Positions 13,871 through 53,706 of a stretch of 64,000 nucleotides of DNA are shown here, one piece after another. Location of the stretch: contig CAIIXF020000007.1 of assembly GCA_903813345.2 (NCBI GenBank), positions 34,812,538-34,876,537 of the forward strand, written 5' to 3'. Numbering within the stretch: the first letter of the stretch is position 1; every line of letters begins with the position of its first letter. A program made the translations under genes and the position numbers. Below the pieces are notes generated by a model. The model was not told the origin of the DNA. It worked only from the letters and a program-made list of their open reading frames with translations, and did no database searches. Source of the stretch: Owenia fusiformis (Eukaryota > Annelida > Polychaeta > Sabellida > Oweniidae).

Positions 13871-14001
13871 ATATATTCAGAAATAAGGTCTCATGAACTA
13901 TGTAACTTATTAATACAGGGTGTTGCACCTAGCCTGTCACAGATTTATATATATGAGATGCTAATGTCAGATCTAGTACATAGTTAGAGATTCATGATAT
14001 A

Positions 14002-15046
14002 CTGTGGCGAAGTTGAGTCTCTCTATCTTTTACAAAACATGAAAACAAATATAGTTTAAAATATAAATTTATTAAAGAAAAGTTAAAGTCCAAAAATATC
14101 ATTTCAATCAGTTACTTACAGTTTTTGGTTAGTCCCGAGTTCACGCAACGAGGTTCTGAGGTTTCAATGCCAAAAATGCCTCTTTTATATCCTAATTTTG
14201 AAGTGGGCAGAGCCGAAATAAGAGGTCTTATCCAATAAAATATGAAGAAATCTCATGAACTAAAATTGGCCGAAAAATGAATGTTTAATTTTATAGAAAG
14301 TCAATAAGGAATAGTGATGATTTTCTGCCCACGAATCTTGAATGTTTACCGAAAGTTTGAGAATTTGGCAGAATTTGGTGGGAAAGGAATGTCTAGACAA
14401 AACCTCTGAGCCTTGTCTCATGAACTCTGGATGTTTAATCTAATTATCTAATTTAGTTCATTATCTAATTTATGTCCAAAACACATATTTATACGTCAAT
14501 TTTCACCCTAAAAAGTATACAATTATTCGTAAAATGTGATGTAGATTATAAAGGTATAAACATTTGCAAAGTATATATTAGCAGTATTGATGTTTTGGTC
14601 AGTTGTACTCCAGGTCGTTAGGTTTAATCGCTTTTTACTTTGTTTATCAGAAATTTGCAGTCTTCAAGATGATGCCAAAAACTATCCAAACTTATAAACA
14701 TCTTAACTAAACATTGCAAAATTTCCCATCAGTTGACTTCATATATCATTTCTGCCACTCATATTTCAAGAATAATCCTTTCGTTTGATTGGCTCTAGAT
14801 ATAGTTCATGCCTAAAAACTGCTCTAATATGATGATAAAACATAGGAAATTAAACTGTTGATATTGTGAAATATCACACTGGGTTTAAAGATCACTAAAA
14901 CAACTGTTATAATACAAATATAAACTAATCAAAATAACGCAATAATTATAAACATGAGTAACAGAAAAAGATCATTATGACATCAACTGATGTGAAGTGA
15001 AATAAGTAGACTGACCAACGAGGTCAGCTATGACTTCGTCACAATA
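14002..15046. mobile_element. Possible MITE with CTGTGGCGAAGT / ACTTCGTCACAAT ends and internal inverted repeat
   Basis: The outer edges are short inverted repeats (TGTGGCGAAGT and the reverse complement TGTGACGAAGT). A stronger inverted repeat lies inside: GAGTTCACGCAACGAGGTTC near 14139 pairs with the reverse of the 14400-14433 stretch (AACCTCTGAGCC...CATGAACTC). The outer boundaries are uncertain; the inner repeat is clear. Confidence 0.45.
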
Positions 15047-15240
15047 CCATATAATATAATGTGCTCCAAGTTCCTGTGACAATTTATTCATGAAATGTAT
15101 ATAAATATAATGAATAAAGCAAATATATGATTGATGAAAAATCAACATAGTTGTGATTTTATGGACTGTAAATTTGAAATGATGGCGTTTCCTTGACGTA
15201 AATTTATGAAACTGAGGACTATTGTAACATGGTCATTGTC

Positions 15241-15379
15241 ATTTAAATCAATTGGAATAGCTTACTTTATTATGGTTTTATTATCTATGAATCCACAGCA
15301 ATTGTTATGAGCAAACACAACGCTGCGTGCAAAACTGCTCTCACAACGTACGTCAACCACATATTACAGAGATACAACA
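15241..15379 (+). promoter_or_regulatory. Duplicated promoter / 5' leader of the cysteine-rich secreted gene
   Basis: This stretch is about 75-80% like 22150-22303 upstream of the second signal-peptide exon. Shared blocks are ATTTAAATCAATTGGAATAG, AATCCACAGCAATTG and GCAAAACTGCTCTCACAACG. Conservation in the same position relative to the ATG in both copies marks it as the likely promoter plus 5' UTR, though recent duplication alone could also explain it. Confidence 0.6.
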
Positions 15380-18300
15380 ATGCGGCGCTGTTTTCACCTT
15401 ATGCTATTGCTAGGGGTCGTCACTTTTCTGGCTCACCAGACATTCAGCGAAGAACCAGTAGAAGGTAGTGCATAATTAATTATCTATTTGAATCATCTAC
15501 TACAGGGTGGGCCAATAAATTTCTTACACATTTTTCTGTTTATTCAATTTTCTCTATTATTGCAGTTCAATCCACAAAAAATCAGATATTGGTAGAATTA
15601 TGACTTGTGAAAATGCTAAAGATAAAAATTATTTTTATCTTGTCATGGTCATGATCTGTTTATTTCGTGTGTCATGAAATATTCCAAATTTTCTGTGCTC
15701 GAGACCTCATAGCTGAAAATACAGTGTAGTGTATCTCATACCATAAAATATGTGCCCTTCAAATGGTCTCAACACAATTTCCATCAATTAAAACATATGA
15801 AGCTATCTCTAGGAGAAGCTTGACATGTGACCTCAACTTTTGTCAAAACTGGCACAAAATAAGCCATACATGACTGTCTCATACAGCTCCGACTGATTGT
15901 TCAGGTGGGCGGAGGACATGTTCAGGAAACCCTTGCATTGGGTAATTAAATGTTGAGCTTGTATATTCATATTTACACAAGCTATTGACAATGAATTGTG
16001 TTTTCGATTTTCTAAGTTATTGAAGATGATGCATAACTAACAAAAAAGTTACAATAGATGGAAAAGTGCTCCATTTTTTGCCCCACCCTGTATATCTAAT
16101 ATGTATATTCAAGTCATAATCTTTGAATGGCAAATCTAGAAGATGAAATGGTGGGCCTTATACAATACAATACAATACAGTACGGTACAAAATAGCCATA
16201 CCAGGTGACATGTTATAGTAATACTGTTCAGTTATGTTCACAGTTGGAGAGATTTGTTGCTTGAAATACGTAGTTAGTTGATATAACTTCAAATGATTGG
16301 AAACATAACGATTTAAATGTGCATTACTAAAATAGTGCTTTCTTGGGTTCTGTAATATTTAGGCATTTTTCATGTCTGCTAAGCAGGGGAGAAGGGGACC
16401 CGTTGTAAATGAGCATAACCGGTCTTCAGAATCTGAGTTCATCGGTTTTATAGTCTTGAGAGACACAGTAATTTAAAAGTAAAAAGTAAAGGATTTAAAT
16501 AAATCATTTGTTGTCAAAATTGTGTCAGGTCGACATGGTTAATTGGATAAAGAAGTCACGAAACAAGAAAATGCCAATATTTTAAATTGGAATATCAACG
16601 AAATAAATAGACTTCTTGTCTTAAGGTCCAATCATGGTTACCCCAGTTGAAAAAAGTCCCATACTTTAAAATGACCAAACTGGATCAATTCCTCAAATGT
16701 CTGTTCATCGGAACCAAGTAGGGCGATCTAAGTGAAGATTTGCTTTTCCTGAGTGGAACCGCATATAAAATATGGATCCAGTTGTAGCACAGGTCACAAA
16801 TTGAACTGATCTTAATGTTACTGGCGCAGGATACGTATGTATATAGGGGTTAATTCACAGTAATCTTTCCAGAACCAAAAAAAGAAATGTGGATTTTGCA
16901 CGTTTAAATCGAATTTAGCGAAGAATATCTACAATACATTGTAGCTTGGCGAGATTCATATGCCTTTTCTGAGAAATGGAAATACAGTATAATGAACGCA
17001 ATTATGACATTTCGCTTAAATATCAAAAAGTGTTTGATTTATCATTTATCTGACGCGATTTGAGCGTAAAATATTAAGGTTTTAACAGCCATTTGCCTAA
17101 AAAGACGAGATTGGAAAAAGTCGAGGAATGTATAGAACAACGTCCTACATTAGCACTAAGGGAGCTTTTTACAGATTTTGAGAAGGCATTCGAGAAATAC
17201 TTTTAATAATTTATTCTGGATCTAAAAGTTTGTTTTCAGTGAGGCTAATAAGCAAAATTAGATGAAAAGCCATCCGAAATAAGAGCATTGAGCGTAATCA
17301 AATATACATAATACTATCTACGATATTAGTGTATTTGTTGGATTTATCATTTATCTGACGCGATTTGAGCGTAAAATATTAAGATTTTAGCAGCCATTTG
17401 CCTAAAAAGACGAGATTGGAAAAAGTCGAGGAATGTATAGAACAACGTCCTACATTAGCACTAAGGGAGCTTTTTACAGATTTTGAGAAGGCATTCGAGA
17501 AATACTTTTAATAATTTATTCTGGATCTATATACAAATATACATAATACTATTTACGATATTAGTGTATTTGTTGGACAAAAAACTGACCAAAATGGCTG
17601 GAAATCATGGATTTGCCATTTCAATCTGGTATGAACAAGTATTTATTTGTTTTATAACCCAAACGTTTTCTATGCGCAATTGCTATGGAAATGTTCGAAA
17701 GTATTAATGAAACAAGAATGTACCTACTTTTTCTGTTGCAAAACACAAAAATCGTTGAAACTCGCAACCTTGAGAATCGACTATACTCATTCAACGGATT
17801 CCCTTCACACCCGTGCTAAAAAGCCAATTTAAAAGAGAAGCCCTCGATTGAGTATATCATATAAGTCGTGTTTAAAGTAAAAATACTGAAATCATGAATA
17901 TATTTCGAAGGTACACCTTACTGCAGCACATTACCTTGGGTGAAGACCAATTGCACAAACTGCAATGGCGATTGCTTTAAAGAGTGCGTCTATAGAAGAG
18001 TCAGAAAACCATGCATCAGTGAAGAAGAAAAAACAGAAATGGAAGAGTGTAAGAGTCTAGCTTTGTATGCTCTTGTGGGGTTACCATGTATAATTCAATG
18101 GATGACAGTGGGAACCAGTTTGACTTGGTATATACTTTAAGATGTTAATTTATCCTTGCAACATGGGAAGAACAATCAAAAACTATAGTAAAATATAATT
18201 TTGTAGGCACACCCCCTTGCGAGTCATTATCATGGATACTCGACAAATGTGGCGCCTGTAGGTGTTTTGACAACAAGGCATGTCTTAAATATTGCTCATA

Positions 18301-18625
18301 TAGAAAGGGAAGACCATGCATTGGTACAAGCTACAAGAGAGTTTTAGAAGAATGCCCCGGAGATTGCTCTTGCGTACCCCTTTGCGAGTCATTACCTTGG
18401 GTACGCGACCAATGTGGAGACTGCCACTGCAAGTGTTACGGCCCTGCATGTTGTAAATCATGTACATTTAAAAAGGGAAAACCATGCGCAGGTGTAGACT
18501 TTAAAAGAGAGACAGTAATGTGCCCCGGAGAATGCTCAGATTGCTGGGGAGGTGGAAGAGAAGGAGGTAGAAGTGGAGGAAGAATAGAAGAAAGAAGGAG
18601 TGAAAGAAGAGAATCATCGAAATAG
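15380..18625 (+). CDS. Secreted protein with three cysteine-rich modules (unrecognised family)
   Basis: Exons 15380-15464, 17911-18048 and 18207-18625 join in phase (85+138+419 nt = 213 aa). Exon 1 is a signal peptide (MRRCFHLMLLLGVVTFLAHQ). Modules 1 (residues ~30-75), 2 (~76-128) and 3 (~129-185) share the pattern TPxC-x-SL-P/S-W, CxxC, CxxxC, then K/R-x-x-K/R-P-C and a closing acidic C. Module 1 is encoded by a symmetrical 1-1 exon whose last codon is split T|GC, giving the closing Cys. Modules 2 and 3 are fused in exon 3. The tail after CWGGG is Gly-, Arg- and Glu-rich with no cysteine. I do not recognise the domain. Disulfide-rich, extracellular and possibly matrix or defence are inferences from composition only. 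The exon 2 acceptor (TTTCGAAG|GT) is weak, but the only nearby alternative gives a stop. AATAAA is at 18816-18821. Intron 1 holds a MITE and a tandem duplication. Confidence 0.75.
15503..16090. mobile_element. MITE, CAGGGTGGGCCA-type, TA flanks
   Basis: The left end CAGGGTGGGCCAATAAATTTC pairs with the reverse complement of the right end, CAGGGTGGGGCAAAAAATGG. TA lies outside each tip. It is non-coding and sits at the start of intron 1 of the cysteine-rich gene. The tip sequence relates it to the elements at 265, 28746 and 53364. Confidence 0.75.
16091..17035. other. Intron 1 of the cysteine-rich gene, no further feature
   Basis: Only a short ATACA microsatellite near 16158-16190 was noted. 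There is no exon-like frame with the module's cysteine pattern. Confidence 0.5.
17036..17580. repeat. Tandem duplication, 305-bp period, in intron 1
   Basis: GATTTATCATTTATCTGACG begins at 17036 and again at 17341, and the next ~180 bp are nearly identical. The second unit lacks about 75 bp present in the first after TTCTGGATCT, and both end in the AATATACATAATACTAT...GTTGGA block. The near identity suggests a recent event. Confidence 0.9.
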
Positions 18626-18815
18626 GCAATTCTTGATGAGACGGAGAGAACATACGTATACATGTTTACTTGTAAGCAAATACAGAGTAGGCTAAAAACG
18701 TCGATTTTTTTGATTTATTTTGATAAACCTTTTTTGAAAATGCATGCATTTCGATAAATGTTCGCAAAGGATGAGGGAATCATGTTTGCAATTATATTGT
18801 TCCCAAAATGGCAAC

Positions 18816-18821
18816 AATAAA
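18816..18821 (+). terminator. poly(A) signal of the cysteine-rich gene
   Basis: AATAAA lies 191 bases after the stop codon, and no other gene on this strand is nearby. Confidence 0.5.
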
Positions 18822-18825
18822 TCAT

Positions 18826-19664
18826 CAATCAATCTGTTTAAGAAACACATATAGCAGGGTGTTCAGTATATTCGGAAAATATATCAAGACAAAAATAGAA
18901 TAATAAAAGTATCATAAGATAAATAAGTGAGATGAAGAAATCTGATTCAGCATCAAGAAAAATGATGATTTCGGAAATCTGCCTTAAGAGGGAAAACTAT
19001 GCCGAAAAAGTATTTGTGATAACGACGATCGATATAGTGCTTGATTTCCGACTTATTACTTTGCTTATCTTCCTGGCCAAATCAATTTTCACCTACCCTG
19101 CGTGCAGAGTCTAGTTAAACTACAGAAGACGAAGCTCTCTTTTAAGAAGTGAAGTCAAACGAATGCAAAGGGTAATTTTCACCTAGAATTGGGCTAACAG
19201 TTCCATTCCATTCCATAAACTGTATATTTTCATTTAGACCCCTTTAGTGTCTGTTACCCTTTCTTTTTCAGGAAAATCTGACGATTTATTTATCCCATTT
19301 CGGGAATAATTGCAAACATGCTTCTGCATTCTAGCCAAAAGTATTTTAAAAATATGGACGTTTTTGGCCCATCCTGTACATGTATATTCTGGGACATACA
19401 TCCCAAATAAAAAAAATAAAGAATCTAAATATACACATGCTAATCTTCGCAACCTTATTTATTCCTATAGCATATTCCAAAGCATATATAGCTAGTTTTC
19501 TGATACATATTTCAACAAGCTCATTTCGTAATATAAGCTACATGTATATTGAGTTAAAACATGCATGACGTACATCACCTTCTTCAGAAAGAAGTATGCT
19601 GTGAAACGAAATCAAAATTGCCAGAATAGTTTTCAAAAGGCATGAGTGTAATGCAGGTGTATAT
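18826..19664. other. No recognised gene
   Basis: A CAGGGTG-like motif at 18857 and CATCCTGTACA at 19371 could be the decayed tips of another MITE, but the adjoining sequence does not pair convincingly. The small frames on both strands have no domain. Confidence 0.35.
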
Positions 19665-21600
19665 ATATATTTCTTTATTGCGACCATAATTGATCATCAT
19701 AATATACATTAATTTATGTTAACATATATACAAACATTTAGGTGAACAATACAAGGTCGGGACTATATTTAACATTGATTGCATGGTATTTCTAAAAGAA
19801 GAAATTAAAATGGTGTCATCTGCATAGGATGGAGCACAACATGACATCCCTCGTATAGCACAGCCTAGCCCAGAGTTAACGAGCTCTTCCAATAAGGGAT
19901 TCATGAATCGTACATATAATTCCATTGATAAAACCCCTCCCTGATGAATGCCCTGACTTACAATGAATTTTTCACTACATTTACCCTTTACTCTGACACA
20001 CCATTTATAACCTTCATAAGTTTCAAGGATCATCTTCCATAATTTGCCATTTATACCCTGGTTATACAAAATGTACATTAAGCCATTTAACCACACAGTA
20101 TCAAAAGCTTTTTTCACATCAATAGCCAGAGCGTAAGCCTCAGACCCATTTTCTAATTGATTTGCAATAGTCTCCCTTAGTATTAACGACGTGTCAAGAC
20201 AAGAAGCGCCAGGCTGTGCAGCATACTGTAATTTGGATCGACAAAAATCACCACATAGTTTACTCCGTTCAAGTATTAATCTGTCTAGAATTTTGCTATA
20301 CGAACACATGAGAGTAATACCTCTGTGGTTATCCTTGTCTAAGATATCCTTGTTATTACCCTTGTATAACGTAATTATGACACCAATCTTTAAACTGCAT
20401 GGGACATACTCAAGTTTAAACATACAATTAAAAATCATAGTAAGGACCTCGATAAGGGTCTCACCACCATACCTTAGGTGCTCTGCTGAGATACCATCTA
20501 TGCCACATGCTTTATTAAATTTAAGGATTTAATAGCCATGGCCAGATCATTCTCATCAAAACATTCATTAAAAGAGCCATCATTATTCTCTGAATATCCA
20601 CGCTTCATGAAGTCCATCATTGCATTAACATGTGCTTTAAAATCTATGTCAAAATTATCACATTCCTTTGGAGTAAAAAGCTGACTAAAATAATTAGACC
20701 ATTCTTGCCTTACAGCATCTGGCTCTTGAAGTACTATACCGTGGTCATTTCTAATACAATTGGAATTTTTCCCAGATTTCTTGTGCCTATTGGCCAAAAA
20801 CCAGTAGTACCTTGCATCTATATCTTGACTTTCATCAATATCTTTCTGACAATTAATATTATATTCTACCTCAGCCTGTCTCAAGGCACGTCTAAATGCT
20901 CTTTTGGCATCTTTGTATCTCAACCAAAAAACATTGTTACCACGATGCATACCACTTCTTTTCCACTCTGACCACATTTTATTTTTTGCTTTCAAGAGGT
21001 CTTTAATGCTAGAATTCCAATAAGGTTTAAGTCTCTTGTTATATTTCCTTTTGGGAATTCTATGATTGGAAACAGTTTTAAGGATATCTGTAACCCGGTT
21101 TAACACAGAATCTATATACTCTTTACTGACGTCACAATCTAAAATTTTATTCTCGAGGTTAATCTTAATTTCCGCAAGACCCTGACTAACACCCTTGGTA
21201 AATAATTCTTCAATGTCACATTTTGAAAGCTTATCCCATGCATTGCGGCAATTATTTCCAGGTGCACTATTACCAGCATTGAAATCATTTATATTTGATA
21301 AGTTTACATTTACAACTAAGGACAGATGATCTGATGTGTTGAGTAGTTCATCTTCATTTGTAATCCCTCCATTAACATATCTGTAAAAAGTGCTTGATAT
21401 AACACAATGATCAATGTAAGAGGTCCCCAAGTAATCCCTGCTAAAAGTGTAATTAGGCCCTTTCCACAAATCATTATACATGTCGATAGCCATCAGGCCA
21501 TTCCTCTGCATAAATTCATGAAATTTAAAACCATTACGATTAATGATTCCCGTTGACAGCAACGTGAAATTTTGAACTCCAGTTCTAAACACGAAACTCT
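19665..21600 (-). mobile_element. Non-LTR retrotransposon (LINE) fragment, broken
   Basis: Minus-strand frames 21592-20498 (364 aa) and 20438-19719 (239 aa) belong to one LINE polyprotein interrupted by a frameshift near 20515. The first carries the end of an AP-endonuclease (YIDHCVIS and SDHLSLVV) and a linker. The second is reverse transcriptase: IDVKKAFDTVW, QGIHQGGVLS and the catalytic YADD. Coding stops about 30 residues after YADD, so the thumb and C-terminal part are gone, as are the first ~150 residues or more of the endonuclease. The 3' edge carries a CAATAAAG-type end (minus strand) near 19680, also seen at the 58-kb LINE. Clade is uncertain (CR1/Jockey-like). It is inactive. Confidence 0.85.
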
Positions 21601-22147
21601 GAAGCTGAAAGGGTTCTGTAGTAGACTAAAGCGCTTTGCGCGCATAAAACCATGCGCCCTCTTCACATTACTACGAGATTGATTCATGTACTTTCCGTTC
21701 ACGGTTGCGTTGTGAATAACATTGCAAGCTTAATCTCTCTAGTACCTCACCATTGTTACGTAAACGGAACGGGTTAGATTAGAAGTGCAGATCTTAACCG
21801 TTTTTGCAGTAAATGGTGCATATGCTTAAGTTAAGTCAATACACCCTTCCTGGACTTATACGACCCAAATCCCAGCCTATGTGTGTCTACCGATTAAATA
21901 TTTATTAAGTATTTTTTAGTGTGTAGTCTTAAATTTTTTTGACTTTGGGCGTATTTGCCCAATAATGTACTTCTTCCTTTGAAAGGCTTGCGTTACTACC
22001 TTGACGTTACACTTAGACTTGAACAGTTGTCCTATCTATGTAGTCTGTTCAATCTAAAACGTAATCGTAACTACGTACTAACGTACAGACGTATGTTTAA
22101 CGGGAACTGCTTCTTCAATGTCTGAAATTGATGAACATTTCCACTGC
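21601..22147. other. No recognised gene
   Basis: Upstream flank of the LINE fragment and of the duplicated signal-peptide exon. A TTACGTAAACGGAACGG motif at 21756 resembles the TTACGTAAACGGATCC palindrome at 29808, but the context differs. Confidence 0.3.
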
Positions 22148-22480
22148 CATTTAAATCAATTGGAATAGCCTACATTATTATGATTATATCATTCATCGTA
22201 AATCCACAGCAATTGGTAAGAGCAAACAGTGCGCTACATGCAAAACTGCTCTCACAACGTACGTATCGTAATTCACAGATCACATAGTTCAGCAGTTAGA
22301 ACAATGACGAGCTGTCTTCACTTGATCCTACTAATAGGAATCGTCGCCTTCCTGACTCACCAGACATTCGGCCACGAACCGGTCCGTCTTCTCGCTGCAA
22401 GCAGATTGCCCCGAACCGATCCGTCTTCTCGCTGCAAGCAGGATGAAATTCTTTGTCACAAAGTTTGGCATTTTCTATAA
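22148..22480 (+). pseudogene. Duplicate of the cysteine-rich gene's promoter and signal-peptide exon, modules missing
   Basis: The ATG at 22304 opens MTSCLHLILLIGIVAFLTHQ then TFGHEP, matching MRRCFHLMLLLGVVTFLAHQ then TFSEEP of the gene at 15380, and upstream DNA is duplicated too. Past that point the copies diverge. The donor of copy 1 (GAAG|GTAGTG) is not kept, and a 29-bp segment (GATCCGTCTTCTCGCTGCAA) is tandemly repeated. The frame runs to a stop at 22480 (59 aa). No cysteine-module exon was found in the next 4 kb on this strand. It may be a pseudogene, or a short secreted peptide with a new tail. Confidence 0.65.
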
Positions 22481-23372: not shown

Positions 23373-25231
23373 TAAAAGCATCGAGAGGCATCATATATTT
23401 CAAATTAGACACGAGGAAGTCAATATTGAGCAAGTTATGGCTATTTTGAATTCAAATAAAACCGTTAACCCGTACCGGTCCAGCTTTTGACCCGTACCGG
23501 TCAATTTTCGTTAGCTGCGTATACCAAGGGTGCTACATCTAAATTTAGTAACAAAACTCACTTATTCGTCAATTCAAAAACAAGATGCAATAGCTGAAAC
23601 TTTATAAACCAATCAAATCTGAAGGATTTCACTCAGAATAATCATATATAAATGAAACATCGAAATTGAATTAGTTAGTTAGTTAAATATTTATTATAGT
23701 GTCACAGGCTATACAATATATGAGACATATGATTTACAAAACAGGCAATAGCCCCCAGCCGTCTCCGGCTTATGAGACACTTTATATCAATGAATTTACT
23801 GTGATTGTTGCAATTTCTTTGTTCAATTCAGTTCATTGATTGTCCAGTTTCGATATGATTAAATGGTGAGTCTATGTTATTAGTTTTAATATCAAACTAA
23901 TTACTGTGTACATATATGTCGACATTAATCTGTGCCATATGAATTCAAAAATGAGTCAAATGTTTTTAGTTATTACTCAAGTCGCACAAATAAGTCCATG
24001 TGTTTCTTTTCTTTACAAAATATAATCCTATGGTTTTTCTTGGTTCAGTAGTTCTGCAATGAAACAAGCTTATTAGCCTATAACTTACAATCTAATTGAT
24101 GCCATAATCTTGTACATAGGCAATATGCAGTTGTTGAATATCCAAGATCGACTGGATGTAAACAAGGGTATTACTGAATTACAGTTACCCAAGGCAAAAT
24201 ACACATGTCAGTTGTTATGCCTTTGTGTATAATTTATCCACAATCCTAATGTGTGTGTGTGGGGGGGGGGGGGTTGATAGTCATTTTGGAGAACCGGTCA
24301 TTTTCCTGAGAGAGCAATTAGTTGTTCTGAAATTTGTCACTTACATTTTACAAATAAATCGTTTTGATATCGAAGAGATGCTACTTTGACAATATGCTGC
24401 AATTATAGAAAGGCCTGTTTGTCTGTTGTGCACTGTGTGTGTGCCCTGTGTGCTTACTGCCTGTCAGTCAGTCAGATGTAAAATTTATATTTGATAAAAA
24501 CATATTTATATACTTAGTACTATTTTTGATATTGAAAATAAATTGATTTATTGATATTTTAAATCTTATTTTGTGATTATTGGTTCAAGAGACTCTATGT
24601 AATCGACCCACATACACTCGCCCACTATCCTTCAAAAGCGATGCTGTTAAAATCAGAGAGAGAGAGGACGACGAAAAGAGCAACAGTTGGACAATCGGCC
24701 GAGAGCTGTGATGAGAAAACCAGACTCTCAAATTGGAGACTAAAGTCAGTCAGTAAATCGTTTGAAGATCAATCGGCAGTTTCACCTCTACTTGATTCAA
24801 TCGATAATTTGTTTCACAGTTGATGATTTTTAATAAAAAGGATTTATGGTGAAAATAAACACTGTATCAACAAAGAAGTGATATCTTAACTTGTAATATT
24901 AATCAAATACCTGTAAGCTATGCTATTTGTAGAATAATAAGAAAATATATCAAATCTAACAAAAATAAAGAATTTACAGGAAACTCATACAGGGTATCAA
25001 ATTTAAGTCCCGTCTTCTCTATAGCAAAAGCTTTAATAAATGATACCTAGTGTGATATACCATTGGTAAGACCAACCAAACTAACATTGACTCACAAACT
25101 CTCAAACTTGTTAAAAAAGTTGAATGTCCCTGTAACAACAATGGTACAATTAAAATGATATTTTTGTCAGTTCAATATTGTCACCACCTGTCACCACACA
25201 CAACACTTGCATCTTGTCACGGGTATATGTA
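23373..25231. other. No recognised gene; LINE-tail-like fragment near 23690
   Basis: At 23666-23790 a (GTTA)n run followed by AATATTTATTATAGTGTCAC resembles the 3' end of a minus-strand LINE or SINE. There is a poly-G run near 24260. The 60-codon frame at 24641 has no recognisable domain. A CAGGGTATCAA motif at 24992 could be another MITE tip without a partner. Confidence 0.35.
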
Positions 25232-26032
25232 CAGTGCGTATAAAAAAACGCAACAGATTGTTATCTCGGAAAAGCACAAAACCAGTGATAACAGCATTGA
25301 TTTCATTCAATGCACCATAAAGCCACGTGTCTCCTCTTTACAATGATATATCATTCATTGATATTTGGTCATGATTGGGCGAGTACTCATTCCATTTGGC
25401 CAAGTTGGCCAAAATTAGCTTGGGGCCAAGTTATAAACATCGCAAAAGTCAGTGTACGACGCCCAATGCAATATATATATACATATAACCATTGCTGTTT
25501 GCATCATTTTCATGCAATGTACCAAAAAGCCAAAATACTCTTCTTTGCAATGGAATATCATTGATTCACAGGGAGTCATGGCTGGCTGAATAATCATTAA
25601 TTTTGCAAAGTGGGGCAAAATTCAGCTCGGACCCAGGTTTTAAACATTGCGAAAGTCAGTACAAGGGGCATGGGGGCTATTGGAAGAAGGTGTGACTGGT
25701 GTGGCATAGGCAGTAAAGTGTTCATACTCATATTCTTGCAATAATACATCCTAAAAACCCTCCAAATTGCCACCACTTCATTGCACATAAAGGTGCGCTC
25801 ATCTGTCCATGTCATGCATGGTTCAGCCCTGAGTCATCTGTGGATTAAAGCAGAGAAAAGCAGCCCATGGGCAATTATTTCTCGGGGTTTTGCAATTTCT
25901 GATGGAGGAATTGTGAGCACAGATGCTCCTGAGGTAGCTCCAAAAGAAATAAGTCACAATAATTCAAGTCAGGGGCACTTTTATTGGCACTTAGATAACT
26001 ACTTGCTTGTTGCGCTTTTTTGATACACCCTG
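25232..26032. mobile_element. MITE or decayed transposon, CAGTGCGTATAAAAAAACGC ends, TA flanks
   Basis: The left end CAGTGCGTATAAAAAAACGC pairs with the reverse complement of the right end, CAGGGTGTATCAAAAAAGCG, with TA on both sides. Inside, a ~190-bp segment is imperfectly duplicated (AAAGCCACGTGTCTCCTCTT near 25320; AAAGCCAAAATACTCTTCTT near 25526). A minus-strand frame has TWTDERTF, faintly like the DE-containing segment of mariner transposases, but too little remains to call it. Confidence 0.7.
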
Positions 26033-26994: not shown

Positions 26995-28639
26995 ATGGAT
27001 TGTCCTGAAAAGGTTCGTTTAATGTACATGGTTGCCATTACTCAGAGAGAGCGGGATGAAATTGACTTAGAAATTTGCAATCACATTCGTCGACATCAGC
27101 AGGAAAGGGCAAGGAAAGGTAGAAATGTATGGTCGAGAGAATGGGTGAAACGTCGCAGACAATTTGGCTTGTATGACCAGTGATGGTAGAGCTTAGGAGG
27201 GAGGATCCACAAGCCTTTAAAAACTTTCTCAGGATGCCTCCGGGGATGTTTGATGAAATATTGAACAGAGTTGAGCATCGCCTTACCAAACAACATACCA
27301 GGCTACGAGAGGCTCTCGAACCAGGCCTAAAGTTATCAGTGACGCTCCGTCATCTGGCATCGGGTGCGAAGTACAGAGATCTTCAATACAGCGCGCTGGA
27401 GGATACCCCATAACTCAATCTCCGTTATCATCAGAGAAGTGTGTCAAGCGATAGTGGATGAGTACCTGCCCCCGACCACTCCTGCTGCATGGCAAGCGAT
27501 AGCTAACGGGTTCTTAAGTCGCTGGAACTTCCCAAACACCATAAGTGCCCTGGACGGGAAGCATGTCGCAATGAAATGCCCTGCAAAGTTGGTTTCCCTA
27601 TACTACAACTACAAGGGTTTCTACTCTGTTGTGTTAATAGCGTTGGTAGACTCTGACTACAAGTTTATCTGGGCCGATCTTGGTGGTAAGTGTTTCATGA
27701 CAAAAAGAGACCATTTATAAACACAACGTCTCTTAATTCAATGAAACTCAGTTACACATCGCAAGTTCGTCAGTTTAAAAATAAAATTATTTGTTTTAGA
27801 CGACCATTACATAATTTACACAAAACAACATATTTCTTGAAGACAATATTTCGTAAATGTTTTTTATGATTTTGAGAGACGATCGGTGAATCAAATAAAA
27901 CCTAGAGCGAGCATCAACATTCCCTGGAAAATTTGTGAAATGTCAAGATAAAGTATGACGTTAAAGTCTCACAACGTTTTTGAATTTTTCTAGAAACATG
28001 GTTAGAAAGAATACTTCAAAATGTTCTATAAAGCGCATAGCACGTTTTTAATAAGGTGAAACTGAACGCTGTTCATCTCATAAATGCAACTGTTCTGTAT
28101 TTTTAGGGAAGGGGACAGCGTCTGACGCTCAAATTTATAAGGCCTCAGAGCTCAAGCAGGGCATAGCTGATGGTTTCCTAAATCTCCCCGACCCCTCTCC
28201 ACTCCCAAACGACAACCAGGAGGTACCGTATTTCTTTATAGGAGATGATGCATTCGCCCTCACACCAAACATGATGAAGCCGTATGGTGGCAAAGGAAGG
28301 AACGTGGAAGAGCGTATATACAACTACCGTCTGTCAAGGGCACGTCGCTGTGTAGAAAACGCTTTCGGGATCATGGCGAACCGTTTTCAAGTGTTACTGA
28401 CGACCATGGGCCATGCTCCTGCAACTGTTCGGTTGATTGTCCGGATCTGTATGGTACTACACAATCTGATGCGCATGAGGTATCCCCAAATGCAAAACCA
28501 ACTCATCAACCAGCATGGTGATTACGCACACCCAGCTGGACATTGGAGGGGAGCTAGAAATCTTGAAGATACACAAAGACAGGGGGGGCCGAATCGTGAC
28601 AACCGGGAAACAACGCAATCTCCCCCGGCACTGGTGTAA
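26995..28639 (+). pseudogene. Harbinger (HARBI1-like) DDE transposase, two frameshifts
   Basis: Frames 26995-27183, 27180-27413 and 27364-27685 are consecutive parts of one N-terminal and catalytic region, joined by frameshifts near 27181 and 27395. A GT-AG intron at 27686-28106 leads into 28107-28639, restoring DLGGKGTASDAQ. Family hallmarks are KNFLRMPPGMFDEI, ALDGKHVAMKCP (first catalytic Asp), GTASDAQIY (second Asp), and RRCVENAFGIMANRFQ with the catalytic Glu, then VLHNL. The DDE triad is intact, but the two reading-frame breaks should abolish the product. It is a nuclease acting on its own element's ends. Confidence 0.88.
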
Positions 28640-30069: not shown

Positions 30070-33000
30070 GAAAAATTTTGATCGTGTTGGCGCCTCGTGA
30101 ACTATTCGTTCACAAATTATTAGATTTTCATAAACATATCTTTTTATTTATTTTTATTTATTTTTTTGTAAAATCTATTTATTTCTTAACATATGTACAA
30201 CATGTATGCATAATATTACATAATTACAGTTACAATACAGAGTTAAAAACTATTTACATTTAATTAAAAATTTTCAATAAATGTACCACTCTCTTAAGAA
30301 TTAGGTTTTCATAATATATCTCTTTTCCTGTTGGTTTTACACCTAGACGTTCCAAAATGTTACATTCATTTCCAATCCAAATAGGTTCAATTTTTTTACA
30401 ACTTACAAAAAAATGGGCCATATTGTCATTTTCATCACAGAATTTACATTTGTCACTATCCATTATGTTATATCTTTTAAGTATGCCCCCATGAGGGTAG
30501 ATTTTATGGAGTATCTTCCATTGTAATTCTAAGAGAACTGTTTCTCTAGTAGATTTATAAAGTGTTTCCCATACATCTTTGAGGATATGCTCACCATCAT
30601 AATACAATTCAACCTTTCTGTCTTGTACCAATTTTTTTCTAAATGAATTTAGCAGTTATTTTATTAACTTCAATATTTCTGAAGTAAAGTTTGTCATTTA
30701 CATGATCATCTTCACAATTATACCATCTAAAGATGTGTTCTGGTTTTAAAGCATTTTTTAATGCCTGATACTGTAAAAATACTTGGCCATTTCTACCTAC
30801 TATGTTGGCAATATCATCATATGGTACCAATGCTTTGTTTCTAATGACATCCTTAATGTATATCAGTTTTTTCTCAATCCAATTAGAAAAATACAGAGTT
30901 TTATTAGCTCTTACAATATTGTCATTATTCCATAATATATACTCATCTTTATAATTACAATATTTTATCCACAATTTTAATATATCAGCATAAAATTCAG
31001 AGCAGTTCTCTAGACCACTTATTTTTTCAGCTGAAGTGTTACTTCTAAAAACAGAGAGGTTTACTCCCAGCTTATCATACATACTAAAGGGAATAGATTT
31101 CCAATGCCCTTTGGAGCTATCCTTAAGTTTTTTGACCCACTGTAATGCATATGCAATTTGCATGTCTTTAACATTGATCATTTGTAGACCACCTTCAGAA
31201 TAGTCTTGTACAATAACATCTCTTTTAACTTTCTCAGGCACAGTCTTTAAGTCACATTCCTTAAATTTTCCCTTGGCCCAAATAAATTTGAAAACCATAA
31301 TGATTGTATTTATTCTGTTTAAAATATTCTCTGGTAAAATAAAGCCTTGCATTATATAGGAAAATTGTGATATAATCAATGACTTTGCAAGAACAATTCT
31401 TCCAAAAATAGTAAGTATTCGGTTTGCCCAAGACTTCATAATACTTTGACATTTTAAAAACTTAGATTCAATATTTACACTGTTGTTTACCACTTTTACA
31501 TCCGGACTGAATGTGATTCCTAATACTTTAATAGAGTTTTCAGGTTTGACTTTCCACTTGACTTTACCAAGAGTATCTTTCCTATTTTTCCAGGAACCAA
31601 GCCACATGGCTTCAGTTTTATTTACATTCATATTTAAGCTAGATATATTGGAAAATCTTTTAAAGACATCAATGGTATTATAAAATGATTGTGAGTCTTT
31701 TACAAACATTGTAGTATCGTCTGCAAATTGTACAATTTTTAAAATTTCTTCATTTGGTAGGGTTATACCTCTGATATCATTTTGCTGCCTTATTTTGCAG
31801 GATAACAGTTCACAAGCAATAATAAATGTAAGTGGAGAAAATGGGCATCCCTGACGAATGCCCCTTTCTAAATTAATATTGCCAATTATCCAACCATTAT
31901 GATAAATGTGATTGTGACCATTTCTATTGAGTACATCTACCCATTTTATAAATGATGGCCCGAAACCAAATTTTTCAAGTGAGTATAACATAAATTCCTT
32001 AGATATCGAATCAAATGCTTTAGAGTAGTCAATTGCCATCATTATACCTTGAAGTTTATTAGTATCTAAATAAATTATAACATCATCAATTGTTCTTAAG
32101 ATATTTGATGCACTTCGCTTTTTTATAAAACCAGATTGGTCATCATGAATAATTGAGGTGATAATCTGTTTTATTCTATTAGCCAATACCTTTGCAACGA
32201 TTTTATAATCCACATTTGTGAGAGTTAAGGGTCTCCAGTTTTTCAGCTCATCCTTTGGCAGATACTTCTTTGGTATTAGTACCATTAATCCCCTTTTTTG
32301 AGAGCATGACAACTCTCCTTTAATAAAACCCTCATTAAATGAGTTCACAATCAAGTGACCTAATTTTGTAAAAAATACTTTATAAAAAGCAACAGTTATG
32401 CCATCTAATCCTGGGCTTGAGTCATTTCTCATGTTCCTTAAAGCTAAAATACATTCATTATAGGTTATTTCACCTTCACATGATAAACGTTCATCTTGGT
32501 TTAATGAAGGAATATGTACATTATTAAAAAAATCATCAGCAATTGCTGGTCGGAATAGAATCTTTTTAGAATATAACTCACCATAAAATCTATTTAATTC
32601 ATTTATAATTTTAGTCTGGTCTCTTGTTACCTCACCATTATCAAGCTTTAAATGTGTAATAAGTTTCTGTTTCGCTTTAACATTTTCTAGTTGCAAAAAA
32701 TACTTAGTGCTTTTTTCTCCCTCTTCACACCATTGAACTTTTGATCTTATCATAGCACCTCTTGCCTCATTACTTACAATGTCATCATATATTTTTTTGC
32801 ACTCATTAACCTTCATGTTTAACTCATTACTGTCTGGCTTTTTACATAATTGTTTACAAGCTTTTTCTAAATTGGTTTTGGCTATTTTTATTTCCTGTCT
32901 TTTTGCTTTTGCAATTCTTTTACCATAATTCAAAGAAAAATCTCTAATCTCTGTTTTACAGTAATCCCATAACATTTGCTCATCTAAATTCCTATTTTTT

Positions 33001-34300
33001 AATTTTACATTTTCGACAATAGTATTTACTTGATTAACATATTCAGTATTTCTTAACAGACTATTATTAAGTTTCCAATAAGATGGTCCCTTTTCACTAT
33101 CATCTAATGAAATATTTAGCATTATGCCTCTATGATCAGATGTTGGCATATCTACTATTTCTGAAGATACCAATTTATTAAAACCTGCATCATTTGTAAA
33201 AATGTAATCAATGCGCCTAGCAATGTTTTTTGATTTATGTTTCCATGTAAAATTCTTTTCTTCAAAATGATGTAGTCGCCATGTATCTATAATATCAGTC
33301 ATGCATATAAATTTGTTAAATGCCTCAATTTCAAATGAACAATGTTTTTCACCTGAAGTTGTATCCATGTTTGGATTTACAACACAATTAAAATCTCCAC
33401 ACAAGAATAGGTTACTCTGAGAAGTGTCAATATCATTTAAGATTTTTTCCAATTTCTTATAAAATACCACCTTATCTCTAGAATTATTTGGTGCATATAC
33501 ATTGCAATACACAAATATTTCATTTTCATATTCAAATTCAATAACAATTATTCTGCTTTCCTTATGTAACACTTTCACATTTTTACAATCCAAATGTTTA
33601 TTTATTAATATGACTTCACCCTTGCTATGTAAGCTACCAGGGCAATATATAATTCTACCTCCCCACTCTTTTTCCCATGTTTGTTTAATGTTATCAGTTA
33701 TGTATGTCTCCTGGAGACAAGCAACATCACATTTGATTTCATTTTTCAGAAATCTGAAAAATCTATGCCGGGTAATCCTATTTCGCAGTCCTCTAACATT
33801 TCCAGAATAGACGTTAATCATTAAGATCTAGGATTATAAGGGGTGTTATAATAATCTAACCATTGTCATCTGGTGCTGTGTTTTCATGTGTATCATGTAC
33901 ATATTCATTCAAGCTCTCCATCATGATTGGAGAACCAAGTTTATGTTTCTTATCATTATTTTCATTGGTCAAAGGGCTACGTTCCTTCCTTTTCAGTTTG
34001 ATATCTGGCATATTTGACTTTACATGGTCACTTGTAAAGATTTGGTTCTTATGGCCCTCCCCCATTCCTTGACTGCTATTGGGACTGATGGGCATATAAC
34101 AGGTAGATTTATGTACATTATCTTGACTAGAGCTGATATTATGCACTCTATGTATGTCATCGCTGGTGGTATGCATATGATGCTGACACATGTTTGTACC
34201 AAAACGGTCGTGAAGATTTTGCCTACAACTCGTGAAATCTTAAAAAAGATAGATCGTACCTTCGAGGTTGCGCCATTTTGTTACGAAAACGGATCCGTTC
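30070..34300 (-). mobile_element. Tx1/L1-like LINE, nearly intact ORF2, inserted in the Harbinger element
   Basis: ORF2 runs 33821-30639 (1060 aa) and continues at 30631-30260 after one frameshift near 30645. The endonuclease is complete, with NVRGLRN, CLQETY, CGDFNC and the C-terminal SDH. Reverse transcriptase shows SPGLDGI, LIPKK, NWRPLTLTNVDYKIVAKVLA, AIDYSKAFDSI, GIRQGCPFSPL and catalytic FADD. The downstream 123-aa part carries a CKFC...H...C zinc knuckle. The NWRPLTLTNVDYKI signature fits the L1/Tx1 group. Upstream, a 111-aa frame (34191-33856) with basic KLKRKERSP may be the end of ORF1. The full ORF1 is not visible, so the 5' end is probably truncated. The 3' end is a (TTTAT)n-like stretch (plus strand) near 30140-30175; boundaries are approximate. 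Confidence 0.88.
33856..34191 (-). CDS. Possible ORF1 C-terminal remnant of the Tx1/L1-like LINE
   Basis: The frame is 111 codons and ends 35 bases before the ORF2 start, the usual ORF1-ORF2 spacing in L1-type elements. It is hydrophilic and His/Asn-rich, with a basic patch (KLKRKERSP). It has no recognised RNA-binding motif. The upstream reading continues open for some codons before 34191, so the ATG may not be the true start. Confidence 0.4.
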   Translation of the reverse strand: MCQHHMHTTSDDIHRVHNISSSQDNVHKSTCYMPISPNSSQGMGEGHKNQIFTSDHVKSNMPDIKLKRKERSPLTNENNDKKHKLGSPIMMESLNEYVHDTHENTAPDDNG

Positions 34301-38362: not shown

Positions 38363-39574
38363 TTAGTGTAGCCATAATTTCCTAACATCACCTTGGATAT
38401 GTCCTACAATTTTAGCTGTGAATTCAAGTTTGTCAAATTCTTCGGGTCCTTGCCAGCAATGTATATGAGGGGCCTTCATCACAGAAGTGACATTATCACT
38501 ACTGGCCAAGTCCATATATCCAACTGCTTTGTGGTCTTCAGTGAGATTAGGGATAATGTGATTGATGGCTAGTTCGCTCCCATACATCGTTGAGACCTGG
38601 CGCCACCAGTAAGGCCATTCACCATCTTCACTAACGTTAAACAAGCCTCCAAGGCCTGGTAAGGATTTGTTGAATTCATTATTATAAAAATGAACTGTAA
38701 TGTTCAATGCAAGTCTCGAAACTTTTTTGAATATTCCAGGCTTCGCATACCAAGTGCTTCCAAGATTAGAGATATTCTGATGATGCAAACCAAGTTTTGC
38801 CGAAATTGCCCGTAATCTACCTTCACTAAATGGTACTCCGTAACCACCGATTCCAGTGATCAAGGGATATTTACTCAGCCAACCAAGTATCGCTGGAGAT
38901 ATAAACACATCAGTATCCGTCCTCATTATCCAATCGTATCTGTTAGCGATCTGACCAAAGTTAGCATCAATTAGAAAAGTAAATGTATTAATGTAGCAAT
39001 AATCAGGGGGATAGCCTTCATGATTCTGAACCCGGTCTGAAGGAATGTACCAGCAATTGGGAACATTCTCTAAATATTTGTCCATTATCACCGGGAGGCA
39101 ATCCAACGGGAGAAATTTACATATTTCTGGATGGCAATACACTAACAAGTCAAAAATCATATCCGGCACATGTTCAGCATTGTCGATGGCAATATTTTGT
39201 TTTAGATATTTGTGCATCATCACATATTTCCAGGATGCATATAGAAATACTGTGAATTGTATTATATGCTGATCTCCACTATCTACATACATAAGTAAAG
39301 CATTATGCAGTGATGGTTTGTCTTTCCCGCTTATATTTCTTGATGGAACTTTTTCTGTAATTGGATTATTACTTTTACGCAATGTCTCCACTATTTTCAA
39401 ATGTTCAACATGAGTATCACCTGACGTTAAGTTAGACTCCAGAGTTTTTTCACAATTCAGTCCCACTTTGCGTTTCCAATTAATTGGAGCTAATGAAATC
39501 CAAAGCGATGATGACAAGATGAATCCGAGTAATATATAACCACAATTCATTCCATTAAATATTTTGACAGGCAT
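38363..39574 (-). CDS. DUF7164-like type II membrane protein, glycosyltransferase-like
   Basis: Single-exon frame of 403 aa. Residues ~10-30 (CGYILLGFILSSSLWISLA) form a signal-anchor after a short cytosolic end, so the bulk should face the Golgi or ER lumen. The C-terminal ~310 residues form one domain with a DTD motif at 220-222 (MRTDTDVFISP), conserved-looking YPLITGIGGYG, HCWQGP near the end, many aromatic residues and several N-glycosylation sequons (NIS, NIT, NLT). The DxD-like motif and topology resemble metal-dependent glycosyltransferases. I recall the domain as Pfam DUF7164, but cannot confirm it here. Lack of introns in an intron-bearing neighbourhood could mean retroposition. A broken paralogue tail lies at 11806-11868. 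Confidence 0.8.
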   Translation of the reverse strand: MPVKIFNGMNCGYILLGFILSSSLWISLAPINWKRKVGLNCEKTLESNLTSGDTHVEHLKIVETLRKSNNPITEKVPSRNISGKDKPSLHNALLMYVDSGDQHIIQFTVFLYASWKYVMMHKYLKQNIAIDNAEHVPDMIFDLLVYCHPEICKFLPLDCLPVIMDKYLENVPNCWYIPSDRVQNHEGYPPDYCYINTFTFLIDANFGQIANRYDWIMRTDTDVFISPAILGWLSKYPLITGIGGYGVPFSEGRLRAISAKLGLHHQNISNLGSTWYAKPGIFKKVSRLALNITVHFYNNEFNKSLPGLGGLFNVSEDGEWPYWWRQVSTMYGSELAINHIIPNLTEDHKAVGYMDLASSDNVTSVMKAPHIHCWQGPEEFDKLEFTAKIVGHIQGDVRKLWLH

Positions 39575-39896
39575 TTTTTCTCAATATCCTTGAACAATGC
39601 AGTAAAAATTAGAAATTGTCAAAACATTACCAACGCTATAAGTAAGTCCCGTCCAAAGTACCATTATTAATAACCAGGTAAATACAGGACAGGTAATAAA
39701 GATTACGTAATTAGTTTCATATTAGTTATAAACAGAATTGATAATTTTACTTTTAATTTTACTTTTACCGATAAGACAGTATAAGAACTTAAAAGATTGT
39801 TCAAAATGAAAGACACTGATATTGAAAATTCATAGTGTAATGTACATGTATTTTATCATAATAGTCTCGACTCATGATGATCCAAATCTTACCCTA

Positions 39897-42514: not shown

Positions 42515-45500
42515 TCACATATTCCCCATGTCAACGTCATCCTTAGGAGGTAATAGTTCTTTCTTCAATCTAAGTTTCAGACTGTCACTCAGATTGTACT
42601 TCTTGCTTTTTCTTCCATCCTCCTTGTTTTCCTTGTTATTCTTATTTTGAAAGTTATCATCAGTACGGTCTGCACTGCCCATAGAAATCTGTAAACGTTG
42701 TATAGCATTACAATCAATTAATGATTAGATCCTGTAAGTGCATAATTGAATAATTTTAATAAACATTCGGTACATGAAAATAATACAGATAAAATTATCT
42801 TGTTTTAAATGAATTTTAAGACAAACTTTTGATGAAAACAAATATTTTGAAAAAAGCTTATATAAAAATGCAAATAGACTAACTGATAAGTGACGTAATA
42901 GTTGGCGACGTGTAACCTGCTCCATGTTGTTGGCATCTTGTTCCCCAGAGTACCTAACAGGAACATGCATTATATATGGTCAACAGAGATGCTTCACAAA
43001 TATAAACTCTACGGTACGTAATCAATTACCCAAATTTCAACTCTGGTTGAGGGTGACCGTCGGCTAAACTGAATGTCATGCAATATTTGCTTTCCTAGTA
43101 TATGTTTTACGTTTCATGAAAATAAAATTGACATTTTAAATATATGATTTACTCTCGTAAGCAACATGCATATCCATGACAAGGTAAGAAAAGACATATG
43201 ATATACTTACGTTTCTAGTCTGGATCCAGGGTCTCCAATTGGTTTTGATGATCCTTTTCTAACAGCGCATACAATAAGAATGACGATTAATATCAGCACT
43301 ATGCCACCTAATATTCCAACAACAACAGCGACTGAGGCGCATCCATCTCCCAGTTTGATGAAACCATTATTGCAACTGAAACAATTAAGGGCCAATCATT
43401 TGGTTGGCTCACTGAACATTCTATCCTCATCAGCACCTTTTGGTAGCAATATTTTCTTCTTACACATATTACGTGCATCTTCGTCATCTTATGGTTGGAA
43501 TTTCACCATTCCATTCATATATCGTTGCTCATGAGTAAAATGAAAACGAAAACTTGTTAATGTGTATTTCCCGAAACTAAATTCATTACCATTTACCAAA
43601 ACCTTTGTGTATATTTTGCTAAAAAAAGAGTTTCGTGGATCTTTTACTTGACTTTGAGTGATCATTTTTGCATAGTTTCATGAATTAAACAAAGTGTAGT
43701 TGAGAGAGAATTTTTCTGAAATGCCCAATACTCCAGATATGAGCAACGGTGTATGACAATTGTTCAGAAAACGTCAAATCATATTACCAAATTATAAAGT
43801 TCCCAGTTTCATACGAACTGAAGACTTAGGGGCGGCTCAAATCGAACAATGAATAAAATCAACGATTTCAAAAGCTATGGTATAAACACCATGTTGATTC
43901 GAAAATGTGAAGTAAAACCATACGTGCAAACAGTAGTCAGGGAGGTATTATATCCCCCGCTCAAAGAACACGTTCCGCCATAGCACCTGTCATGATCTTC
44001 ATGACTCCATGTGCCAAAAGGGATACGTTGACACATACTGTAACATCCATATTCACCATTGTAGTAATAACATCTGTGTCCATATTCACATCGGAGGATG
44101 TTGCCTGTACACGCACTGGCTACAATAATTGATTGTCTTTAAACAATAGCATTGATAAACTTGAACTATATATTTCTAAATTCTTAATCTCATGTCAAAT
44201 GGACAGATTCTATCGCAAACGTAATACTATACTAGTAGGCCTGTATTTTATGTTCATGTGATGATCATATTTTGTATATTTTACGTGTATTATCACTGTA
44301 CAATTTCATTGCATATTTGCGACACAAGAATTCAAGGGAGAGAGATGGAATTCAAATTCAAGATAATGCAAGTCAAGAGTATTCAAGTTACCCTTATGAA
44401 TCTGTCCATATGTAACATCTCGAAGATAGGCTCTGTCAACCGTAAGATTTTTCATTGTCCCATTAGTGCCGAGCGCATATGTTGTTATGTTTTTGCTTGC
44501 CATTGATTGAATGGTATTATTAACATGCGCTCTGATCGATTCAGTTCCATACTTTGGCATACCGAGATAATATTGTACGTCATATCCCAGTTCAAATTCA
44601 GCTACTATGCTCCCTTTCCTAATTGCAGATATTGTATGGTTTTTATAGCAATTGCTTACAGTTCATATCCTAGTAAAAAGTAATGGTATAACGTCTCTTA
44701 AAGACTAACTTTTAACCAATACTGTATTGTAAAATTGTAAAATGTATGTTTACTGTATGTAACTGTACTGTAATTTTTTTGCAATTGCTTTAACATGCTT
44801 ATTCTTTGAAATAAGAAAAATTAGAAAAAAGAAGTAAATCTCGTGTTGTTGGATTACAAAAGCTCCGATAATGCTATCAGATCTAGAAATGTCTATTTAA
44901 GGCATTGATGCACTCACGTGAATCTTGTAATGTTACAACTAAGTAGTGGAAAATTTGCAAAATCCAAACCGCCATTATGCTAAAAATTGAAGTACGGTCA
45001 AGCCAAGTAACTCAGTCAACATTCGATATTCGTATGTTCATCAATATTAACTAAGAATGGTGACACAATCAAATAGTAAAGCTCTGTTAAATTATTTTCC
45101 ATAAACCTTTCAGCAAACGTGTAAATGATTATTTTGATGTTCTGTTACATATTGGTGAAGCAATCTTGGGGATATGGCCTAAATTTATGAATTTCCACTA
45201 TGTCCCTGTATACCCCTACTTCAAAAGATGTATGTTAATTGTCATTTTTCATTATGAATCAATTATAAATGTATTTTTTCTTGTTTACATACAGAATGAA
45301 CTTTCTGTTTTCAAACATTGAAAGATGGTACTGCATTTATTTTTTCATGATATGGAGCAAACAAATGCGTGTCAATTTATACTGTAATATCCCACTTATA
45401 TTTCAAGGGTAGTTTTGAAGAATAATCAAGAAATTCCATGTTATCAAATGAATTCATCCTTGTCAAAGAACGTTAATGAGGATATGCGGTTTGAAAAACT

Positions 45501-53363: not shown

Positions 53364-53706
53364 CAGGGTGGTCCAAAAATTGGAACATTACTTAAATGTA
53401 TGTAAAAAATGTATTCCTCTCCTAAAATACACCAACATTTCACTGACCATAATTCATCCTAATGTACATTTGCCGTAAAGTTTATAAATGCAGCTTAGCA
53501 TGTTAATAGGTTTTAACAAGCCAATGTTTGATATGACTCCTCTTCTCCTGAATTACAAGTTCAAGCATGAGACCCCATTTCGAAATAATTCGTTCGATTT
53601 GCAGTAAAAAAACTCAACTTGGTCACACTTCCGATATGTTTGGCTCGAAAGATCAAGTCTGGTTACGCAATAAACATATTCTGTAACAAAACTGATTGGT
53701 ATCAAG

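Follow-up and report, generated by a model that had tools for sequence, protein, structure and literature searches.

A putative three-exon gene for a secreted protein of three cysteine-rich modules in the annelid Owenia fusiformis

Small lineage-specific families of cysteine-rich secreted proteins are common in invertebrates. The gene considered here, at positions 15380-18625 on the forward strand of a 64,000-nucleotide stretch of the annelid Owenia fusiformis (assembly GCA_903813345.2, contig CAIIXF020000007.1, positions 34,812,538 to 34,876,537; hereafter the window), is predicted to encode a secreted protein made of three repeats of one cysteine-rich module (M1, M2 and M3), and it shares features with several described systems. 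The molluscan protease inhibitors of MEROPS family I84 are presented in PMC9198434 as small secreted cysteine-rich proteins with three exons and tandemly duplicated genes, and our gene is like them in type of product, exon number and duplication, whereas I84 proteins, with about 70 residues and 12 cysteines, are not built from a repeated unit. A regular expression for cysteines one to seven of the published I84 array found no match, and membership was rejected. In Mytilus mCRP-I knottins, according to PMC10138031, arrays in the last exon are thought to duplicate in tandem and some pseudogenes have exons missing. Our gene likewise combines a conserved signal region with several arrays in one last exon, whereas here one module occupies its own exon, and CRP-I membership was rejected with the array C(X3-6)C(X1-7)CC(X3-4)C(X3-5)C absent from the modules. 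The SepECP proteins also have a signal peptide and three cysteine-rich domains (PMC4500399); their motif CX2GX2CCXGCCX8-9C was not found here, so that this membership too was rejected, and their size is given there as 71-74 kDa.

Two domain families resemble the modules in cysteine pattern. Von Willebrand factor C (VWC) domains (PF00093; COL2A1, chordin, NELL2) have, like the modules, a C..W-x4-C-x2-C-x-C start, about ten cysteines and, in some members, a tandem extracellular arrangement, whereas in the modules the first two cysteines are separated by just 9 residues, and there is no CCxxC end and no Pfam match. The beta-microseminoprotein family (PSP94, PF05825) shares W-x4-C-x2-C-x-C with M2 and M3 and, with M3, a CC pair followed by C-x8-C-x13-C in PSP94 and by C-x7-C-x11-C in M3, whereas the modules lack the long loop after CC and the human protein is single copy, not tandem. 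A gene named microseminoprotein beta appears on a mussel array (PMC3552849), and microseminoproteins may therefore occur in molluscs.

The gene model was obtained by reading the region 14001-20000 with its six frames listed, and consists of the following features:

15380-15464, plus strand: exon 1, with the ATG, the signal peptide MRRCFHLMLLLGVVTFLAHQTFS, followed by EEPVE and base 1 of a Gly codon that the intron splits; phase 1 at its 3' end
15465-17910, plus strand: intron 1, GT-AG
17911-18048, plus strand: exon 2, module 1; 138 nucleotides, phase 1-1
18207-18370, plus strand: exon 3, module 2
18371-18544, plus strand: exon 3, module 3
18545-18625, plus strand: exon 3, basic Gly/Arg/Glu tail of 26 residues, low-complexity, and stop TAG
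18816-18821, plus strand: candidate polyadenylation signal AATAAA, 190 nucleotides past the stop (sequence match only)

Exon 1 translates as MRRCFHLMLLLGVVTFLAHQTFSEEPVE, with signal-peptide cleavage after residue 23 as read by eye, and exon 3 extends from 18207 to 18625, TAG included. When spliced, the three exons give 642 nucleotides and 213 residues without internal stops, for a product of about 21 kDa after the assumed cleavage, and the order proposed by the initial annotation, a secretion signal followed by three modules and a Gly/Arg/Glu tail, is seen in this frame at the exon coordinates that it had listed. Its description of module 1 as a symmetrical 1-1 exon ending in a split Cys codon also stands, since the last base of the 138-nucleotide exon is the T of a TGC codon (T|GC), which makes the Cys at the junction of modules 1 and 2. 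Joining exon 1 to exon 2 or to exon 3 produces Gly either way, and the frame is preserved if exon 2 is skipped.

The three modules, of 47-58 residues, contain 7 (M1), 9 (M2) and 13 (M3) cysteines, arranged as C-x9-C-x2-C-x3-C-x3-C-x8-C-x11-C in M1 and as C-x9-C-x2-C-x-C-x5-C-x3-C-x7-C-x11-C-x3-C in M2, while M3 is 50% identical to M2 and has additional cysteines including a CC pair. Thirteen columns are invariant across the modules, namely seven Cys and P, L, W, K, P and K. The claim of at least seven cysteines per module therefore stands, whereas the SLPW core said to be common to all is complete in M3 only, M1 having TLPW and M2 SLSW. That these are three repeats of one module was confirmed with phmmer searches of each module against all six-frame open reading frames (ORFs) of 20 or more residues in the window, in which M2 found M3 at E 1.7e-13 and M1 found the reading frame of exon 3 (E 4.8e-7 over the full frame, 1.4e-4 for the best single stretch). 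The likeness between modules exceeds what common cysteines would give, because none of 2000 cysteine-fixed shuffles reached the observed alignment score for any of the three module pairs. Dinucleotide shuffles of 17800-18700 (1000 in all) contained no ORF of 138 or more codons with 22 or more cysteines; they yielded ORFs of up to 215 codons with at most 9 cysteines per ORF, so that the cysteine content and the repetition are unusual and the length is not. Six ORFs of 60 or more codons in the window have at least 10% Cys, two of which contain the modules, and the largest of the six (49843-50847) is a frame opposite a Thr repeat. A further match of M1, at 25056-25343 (E 0.031 with phmmer, 0.16 with tblastn), looked like a module and was rejected by eye as having no cysteine framework, and the next profile match outside the gene is at 44089-44175 on the minus strand (E 0.037).

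Synonymous divergence (dS) is 0.47 between M2 and M3 and 0.96-1.04 between M1 and either, with nonsynonymous divergence (dN) of 0.40 and 0.57-0.58 respectively; given the lower dS, M2 and M3 probably split later than M1. Exon shuffling, to which the initial annotation had pointed, thus fits module 1 and fails for modules 2 and 3, which lie together in exon 3 and separated from each other afterwards (dS of about 0.5, against about 1.0 to M1). Between M2 and M3 the cysteine columns are preferentially kept, with 10 the same and 2 different, compared with 18 the same and 26 different among other columns (p 0.02).

Further evidence came from a feature that the initial annotation did not contain, a duplicate of the promoter and signal exon that lies 6.9 kb downstream. 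The paired features are:

15234-15379, plus strand: proximal promoter and 5' untranslated region (inferred roles); of 146 bases aligned with the copy upstream of 22304, 122 are the same in both, with 16 gap columns
22142-22380, plus strand: duplicate of this promoter and of the signal-peptide exon, found by BLAST; ATG at 22304, MTSCLHLILLIGIVAFLTHQTFGHEPV

A scan of both strands of the window in three phases for strongly hydrophobic ATG peptides running into a donor returned only two loci, exon 1 and 22304 (peptide MTSCLHLILLIGIVAFLTHQTFGHEP), and BLAST pairs 15234-15456 with 22142-22380 at 77% over 240 columns. Identity between the copies is 122/146 in the 5' flank and 60/81 in the exon, a difference that is not significant (p 0.12). 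Exon substitutions number 11, 1 and 9 at the three codon positions, and the deficit at position 2 (1 of 21, p 0.0023), expected if a hydrophobic peptide is retained, is independent support for exon 1 as coding. The homology stops 8 bases short of the end of exon 1 and the second copy has no donor sequence. Downstream of it no cysteine module was found within the window, as phmmer matches with all three modules below E 0.03 were the known exons only, and tblastn likewise revealed none among the matches listed (M1 rows, and M2 rows up to E 11). There has thus been at least one duplication of the locus, and in the second copy the modules were lost or the continuation is a different one. On its 3' side there is a short tandem duplication, seen by eye, and a 58-residue frame ending in HFL.

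The reading frame, the exon phases, the homology of the modules and the second signal exon together support a gene for a secreted three-module protein with a symmetric module exon, and such a gene is probably real. Our preferred reading, held tentatively and at somewhat short of even chances, is that this three-exon gene encodes a secreted protein of three disulfide-type modules with a basic tail, acting as a multi-headed extracellular binder. The modules would fold independently on a common cysteine framework while the surfaces between the cysteines diverge, each module offering its own loops to targets of a similar type. The binder would most likely be an inhibitor or a ligand-capture protein of host defence or of the extracellular matrix. 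Under this reading the inclusion of module 1 could also leave one cysteine free for covalent dimerisation, since the mature protein has an odd number of cysteines with exon 2 (29) and an even number without it (22). Secretion, tandem modules on a common cysteine framework, divergent surfaces and a duplicated locus are typical of multi-headed inhibitors and extracellular binders. As a best guess we rank the possible functions as multi-headed binding or inhibition, then matrix cross-linking, then VWC-like ligand trapping, then antimicrobial action.

Several observations weigh against this reading. The three-exon model derives from genomic letters, and the exon-2 acceptor, already flagged as weak by the initial annotation, falls only within the top 38% of 3105 AGs ranked with a generic animal splice matrix (not species-trained), on which donors 1 and 2 are in the top 4.9% and 6.8% of 3668 GTs and acceptor 3 is in the top 16% of AGs. 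A GT at 18075 slightly outscores donor 2 (0.97 versus 0.67). Codon positions in the M2/M3 comparison carry 16, 22 and 16 substitutions, with no third-position excess, and to judge from these counts exon 3 is under weak purifying selection, or the selection is masked. Two scans each of viral and of prokaryote contigs for relatives gave 35, 32, 100 and 15 stretches with a short pattern, none of them confirmed by tblastn, and since no homologue was thereby found outside the window, the function is proposed from architecture only. In AlphaFold predictions, for which the input alignment was the three modules alone, the M3-first model of the same three sequences reached a predicted local distance difference test (pLDDT) score of only 58.6, and with five M2 models spanning 85 to 47 the predicted module fold is not secure.

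On the weak acceptor it may be added that the exon-2 open frame begins at 17898, that the AG before 17911 is the sole AG between the upstream in-frame stop and the module, and that it is the best of 11 AGs listed from 17702 to 17911. Splicing at the GT at 18075 would, by arithmetic, shift exon 3 out of frame.

The best M2-first model (pLDDT 85.4; the five models scoring 85, 79, 67, 65 and 47) has strands at residues 10-14, 18-20, 24-32 and 42-48 and, beside these, only a short helical turn. Foldseek searches with it returned 67 PDB matches to E 10, none at or below 0.001 (best E 2.0, among the best 50 of the 67), and 196 matches in a viral library, again none at or below 0.001 (best E 0.67, among the best 50 of the 196). 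Thrombospondin-type repeat entries and pleiotrophin recurred for M2 (E about 3-8, query TM 0.2-0.4, among the best 50 of the 67 PDB matches) and were not counted, and a fold search with the M3 model is meaningless at its pLDDT. The structure prediction suggested by the initial annotation thus gave, for M2, a model with no significant fold match.

Its statement that the module has no place in a known disulfide family holds for Pfam, NCBIfam, PHROGs and PDB sequences. No credible match was found in the first three libraries for the modules and exon 3, or in Pfam for the full protein; HMMER filters discard most weak matches. Three hits were rejected, two of them for M1 as coincidences of cysteine spacing, Fer4_6 (E 0.018, 15.4 bits versus a cut-off of 25) and DUF5651 (E 0.23, 11.8 bits versus 27), and the third a single ferredoxin in the PDB sequence search (E 0.63). 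Antistasin, TIL and Kazal-type inhibitors gave no Pfam match to E 10 with the full protein or single modules, no profile aimed at them having been built. A description of the module (strings, cysteine arrays, related families) was not found in open-licence PubMed Central text, where CESLPW was without match. Because the libraries other than Pfam and PDB are not animal collections, absence from them is weak evidence of novelty. As far as these comparisons go, an undescribed protein family is possible but unproven, and the finding is ordinary in kind, a gene of an unplaced cysteine-rich module. If the module proves absent from animal protein collections, it would be one more small disulfide scaffold among the many lineage-specific ones of invertebrates; such scaffolds serve as stable binders and help in studying how new extracellular domains originate through duplication of exons and within exons, and this one is of modest value unless relatives, a structure or a target come to light.

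Among the alternatives, the one that survives best, while still unlikely, is a structural protein that is cross-linked within a secreted material such as byssus, shell organic matrix or egg capsule, in which the cysteine bonds would be partly intermolecular and the Gly/Arg/Glu tail would be a disordered linker. The odd total of 29 cysteines in the mature three-module form points to a cysteine that is free or bonded to another molecule, to a wrongly called boundary or to an error in the sequence. Both this odd count and the low-complexity basic tail speak for the structural reading, and the SepECP cuttlefish egg-case proteins, with their common signal peptide and three cysteine-rich domains, form dimers and networks according to PMC4500399. 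However, the SepECP motif is absent here and those proteins have a size of 71-74 kDa, and cysteine spacing kept across the modules suggests intramolecular pairing.

A quite unlikely alternative is that the modules are very divergent domains of VWC or beta-microseminoprotein type, the protein being a trap for growth factors or other protein ligands like chordin or NELL. In its favour, C-x4-W-x4-C-x2-C is present in all three modules and continues with x-C in M2 and M3, so that the W-x4-C-x2-C-x-C core taken as the mark of VWC is complete in these two and lacks its last Cys in M1; M2, read from its first Cys, has ten cysteines in an order like that of VWC provided that the following Cys, here assigned to M3 as its first, is added. 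Profiles of VWC (8 sequences), microseminoprotein (3) and somatomedin B (5) were built, and each module was scored on them beside 1000 cysteine-fixed and 1000 full shuffles. For the VWC profile, 709, 585 and 660 of the cysteine-fixed shuffles (M1, M2 and M3, in this order throughout) and 821, 447 and 395 of the full shuffles scored as well as the modules, and the somatomedin B profile was negative too (743, 187 and 247 cysteine-fixed; 763, 338 and 234 full). The microseminoprotein profile, of three sequences, was equalled by 791, 39 and 102 cysteine-fixed and by 887, 71 and 1 full shuffles, the 39 for M2 speaking for this alternative; the contrast for M3 between 1 full and 102 cysteine-fixed shuffles indicates that its likeness lies in cysteine placement and not in other residues. 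Against VWC or microseminoprotein membership, the modules scored 5.8-11.7 bits on the VWC profile, on which somatomedin B domains scored 7.0-11.9 and microseminoproteins 14.7-18.8, hhalign gave a probability of 1.3% or less, and neither Pfam VWC nor PSP94 matched M1, M2, M3, exon 3 or the full protein to E 10. As a positive control COL2A1 was found by Pfam VWC at 6.9e-17, and human microseminoprotein was reached by it at E 0.0083, below its cut-off. The CC-x2-C end of VWC is also absent, M2 having C-x3-C-x1-C (the final one being the Cys with which M3 is taken to start) and M3 C-x3-C-x2-C. Homology to VWC, microseminoprotein and somatomedin B, suggested by eye, is thus unsupported by profile shuffles and hhalign, with microseminoprotein marginal for M2; membership in the VWC or microseminoprotein families is, on these comparisons, not supported, and a similar subdomain may be present.

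A multi-array precursor of antimicrobial or defence peptides, like mussel mCRP-I, is very unlikely. For mCRP-I, PMC10138031 describes a signal region that is conserved, arrays repeated in tandem in the final exon and pseudogenes nearby, all of which recall this locus, but the modules contain no CRP-I array, their charges (-1.3, +2.3 and +0.7 for M1, M2 and M3) do not make them strongly cationic and the dibasic pairs that are present show no propeptide-like spacing.

It would be a long shot to suppose that the module is the founding member of an undescribed family of disulfide domains restricted to one lineage, and that the symmetric exon 2 is a splice-controlled switch between a three-module form, which has an odd cysteine and makes covalent dimers, and a closed two-module monomer.

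Least probable of all is a non-functional relic of an old duplicated locus full of transposable elements, to which the second copy without a donor or a module found downstream in the window, the elements in intron 1 and the 3' region (partly seen by eye) and an M2/M3 dN/dS of about 0.85 would point, but against which stand 213 codons without stop or frameshift, GT-AG sites in compatible phases and the preferential retention of cysteines.

Intron 1 contains an element at about 15500-16096, recognised by eye, that is flanked by terminal inverted repeats with inverted TACAGGGTGGG[C/G]CAA-type ends and looks mariner-like; its right end (16070-16102) also matches 53353-53384 at 88%. The same intron has a direct repeat (17031-17224 and 17336-17529, 98% identical, starts 305 nucleotides apart), each copy with a nearly identical 42-residue open frame. 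Past the stop, 18681-19378 has inverted-repeat ends that are 76% complementary around a 616-nucleotide interior, and because both candidate polyadenylation signals (18816 and 18902) lie inside it, the 3' end of the gene may derive from an inserted element.

Scans of the window for tRNA and Rfam families found none, and a scan for bacterial-type promoters and terminators found no more than in shuffles, which has no bearing on an animal gene. Elsewhere on the minus strand, LINE-type (long interspersed nuclear element) frames are present at 30642-33827, with endonuclease and reverse transcriptase domains, at 58163-59602, with reverse transcriptase, and, by eye, at 19719-21625, the part 20501-21625 being without Pfam match. 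On the plus strand, 27343-28636 carries two frames matching parts of DDE_Tnp_4, Harbinger-like, at E 3.7e-4 (the first, below the Pfam cut-off) and 2.8e-15 (the second). The minus strand also has, at 49705-51246, a frame of 514 residues with Thr/Pro/Ala repeats, which by eye looks mucin-like, is hydrophobic over a stretch close to the N terminus and had no Pfam match, and whose opposite-strand frames give misleading Cys-rich and Val-rich ORFs. A 405-residue frame at 38366-39580 (minus strand) has a DUF7164 domain (E 5.9e-109), and a TM2-domain protein is also encoded in the window; these two, like the LINE-type and Harbinger-type proteins, fit an animal.

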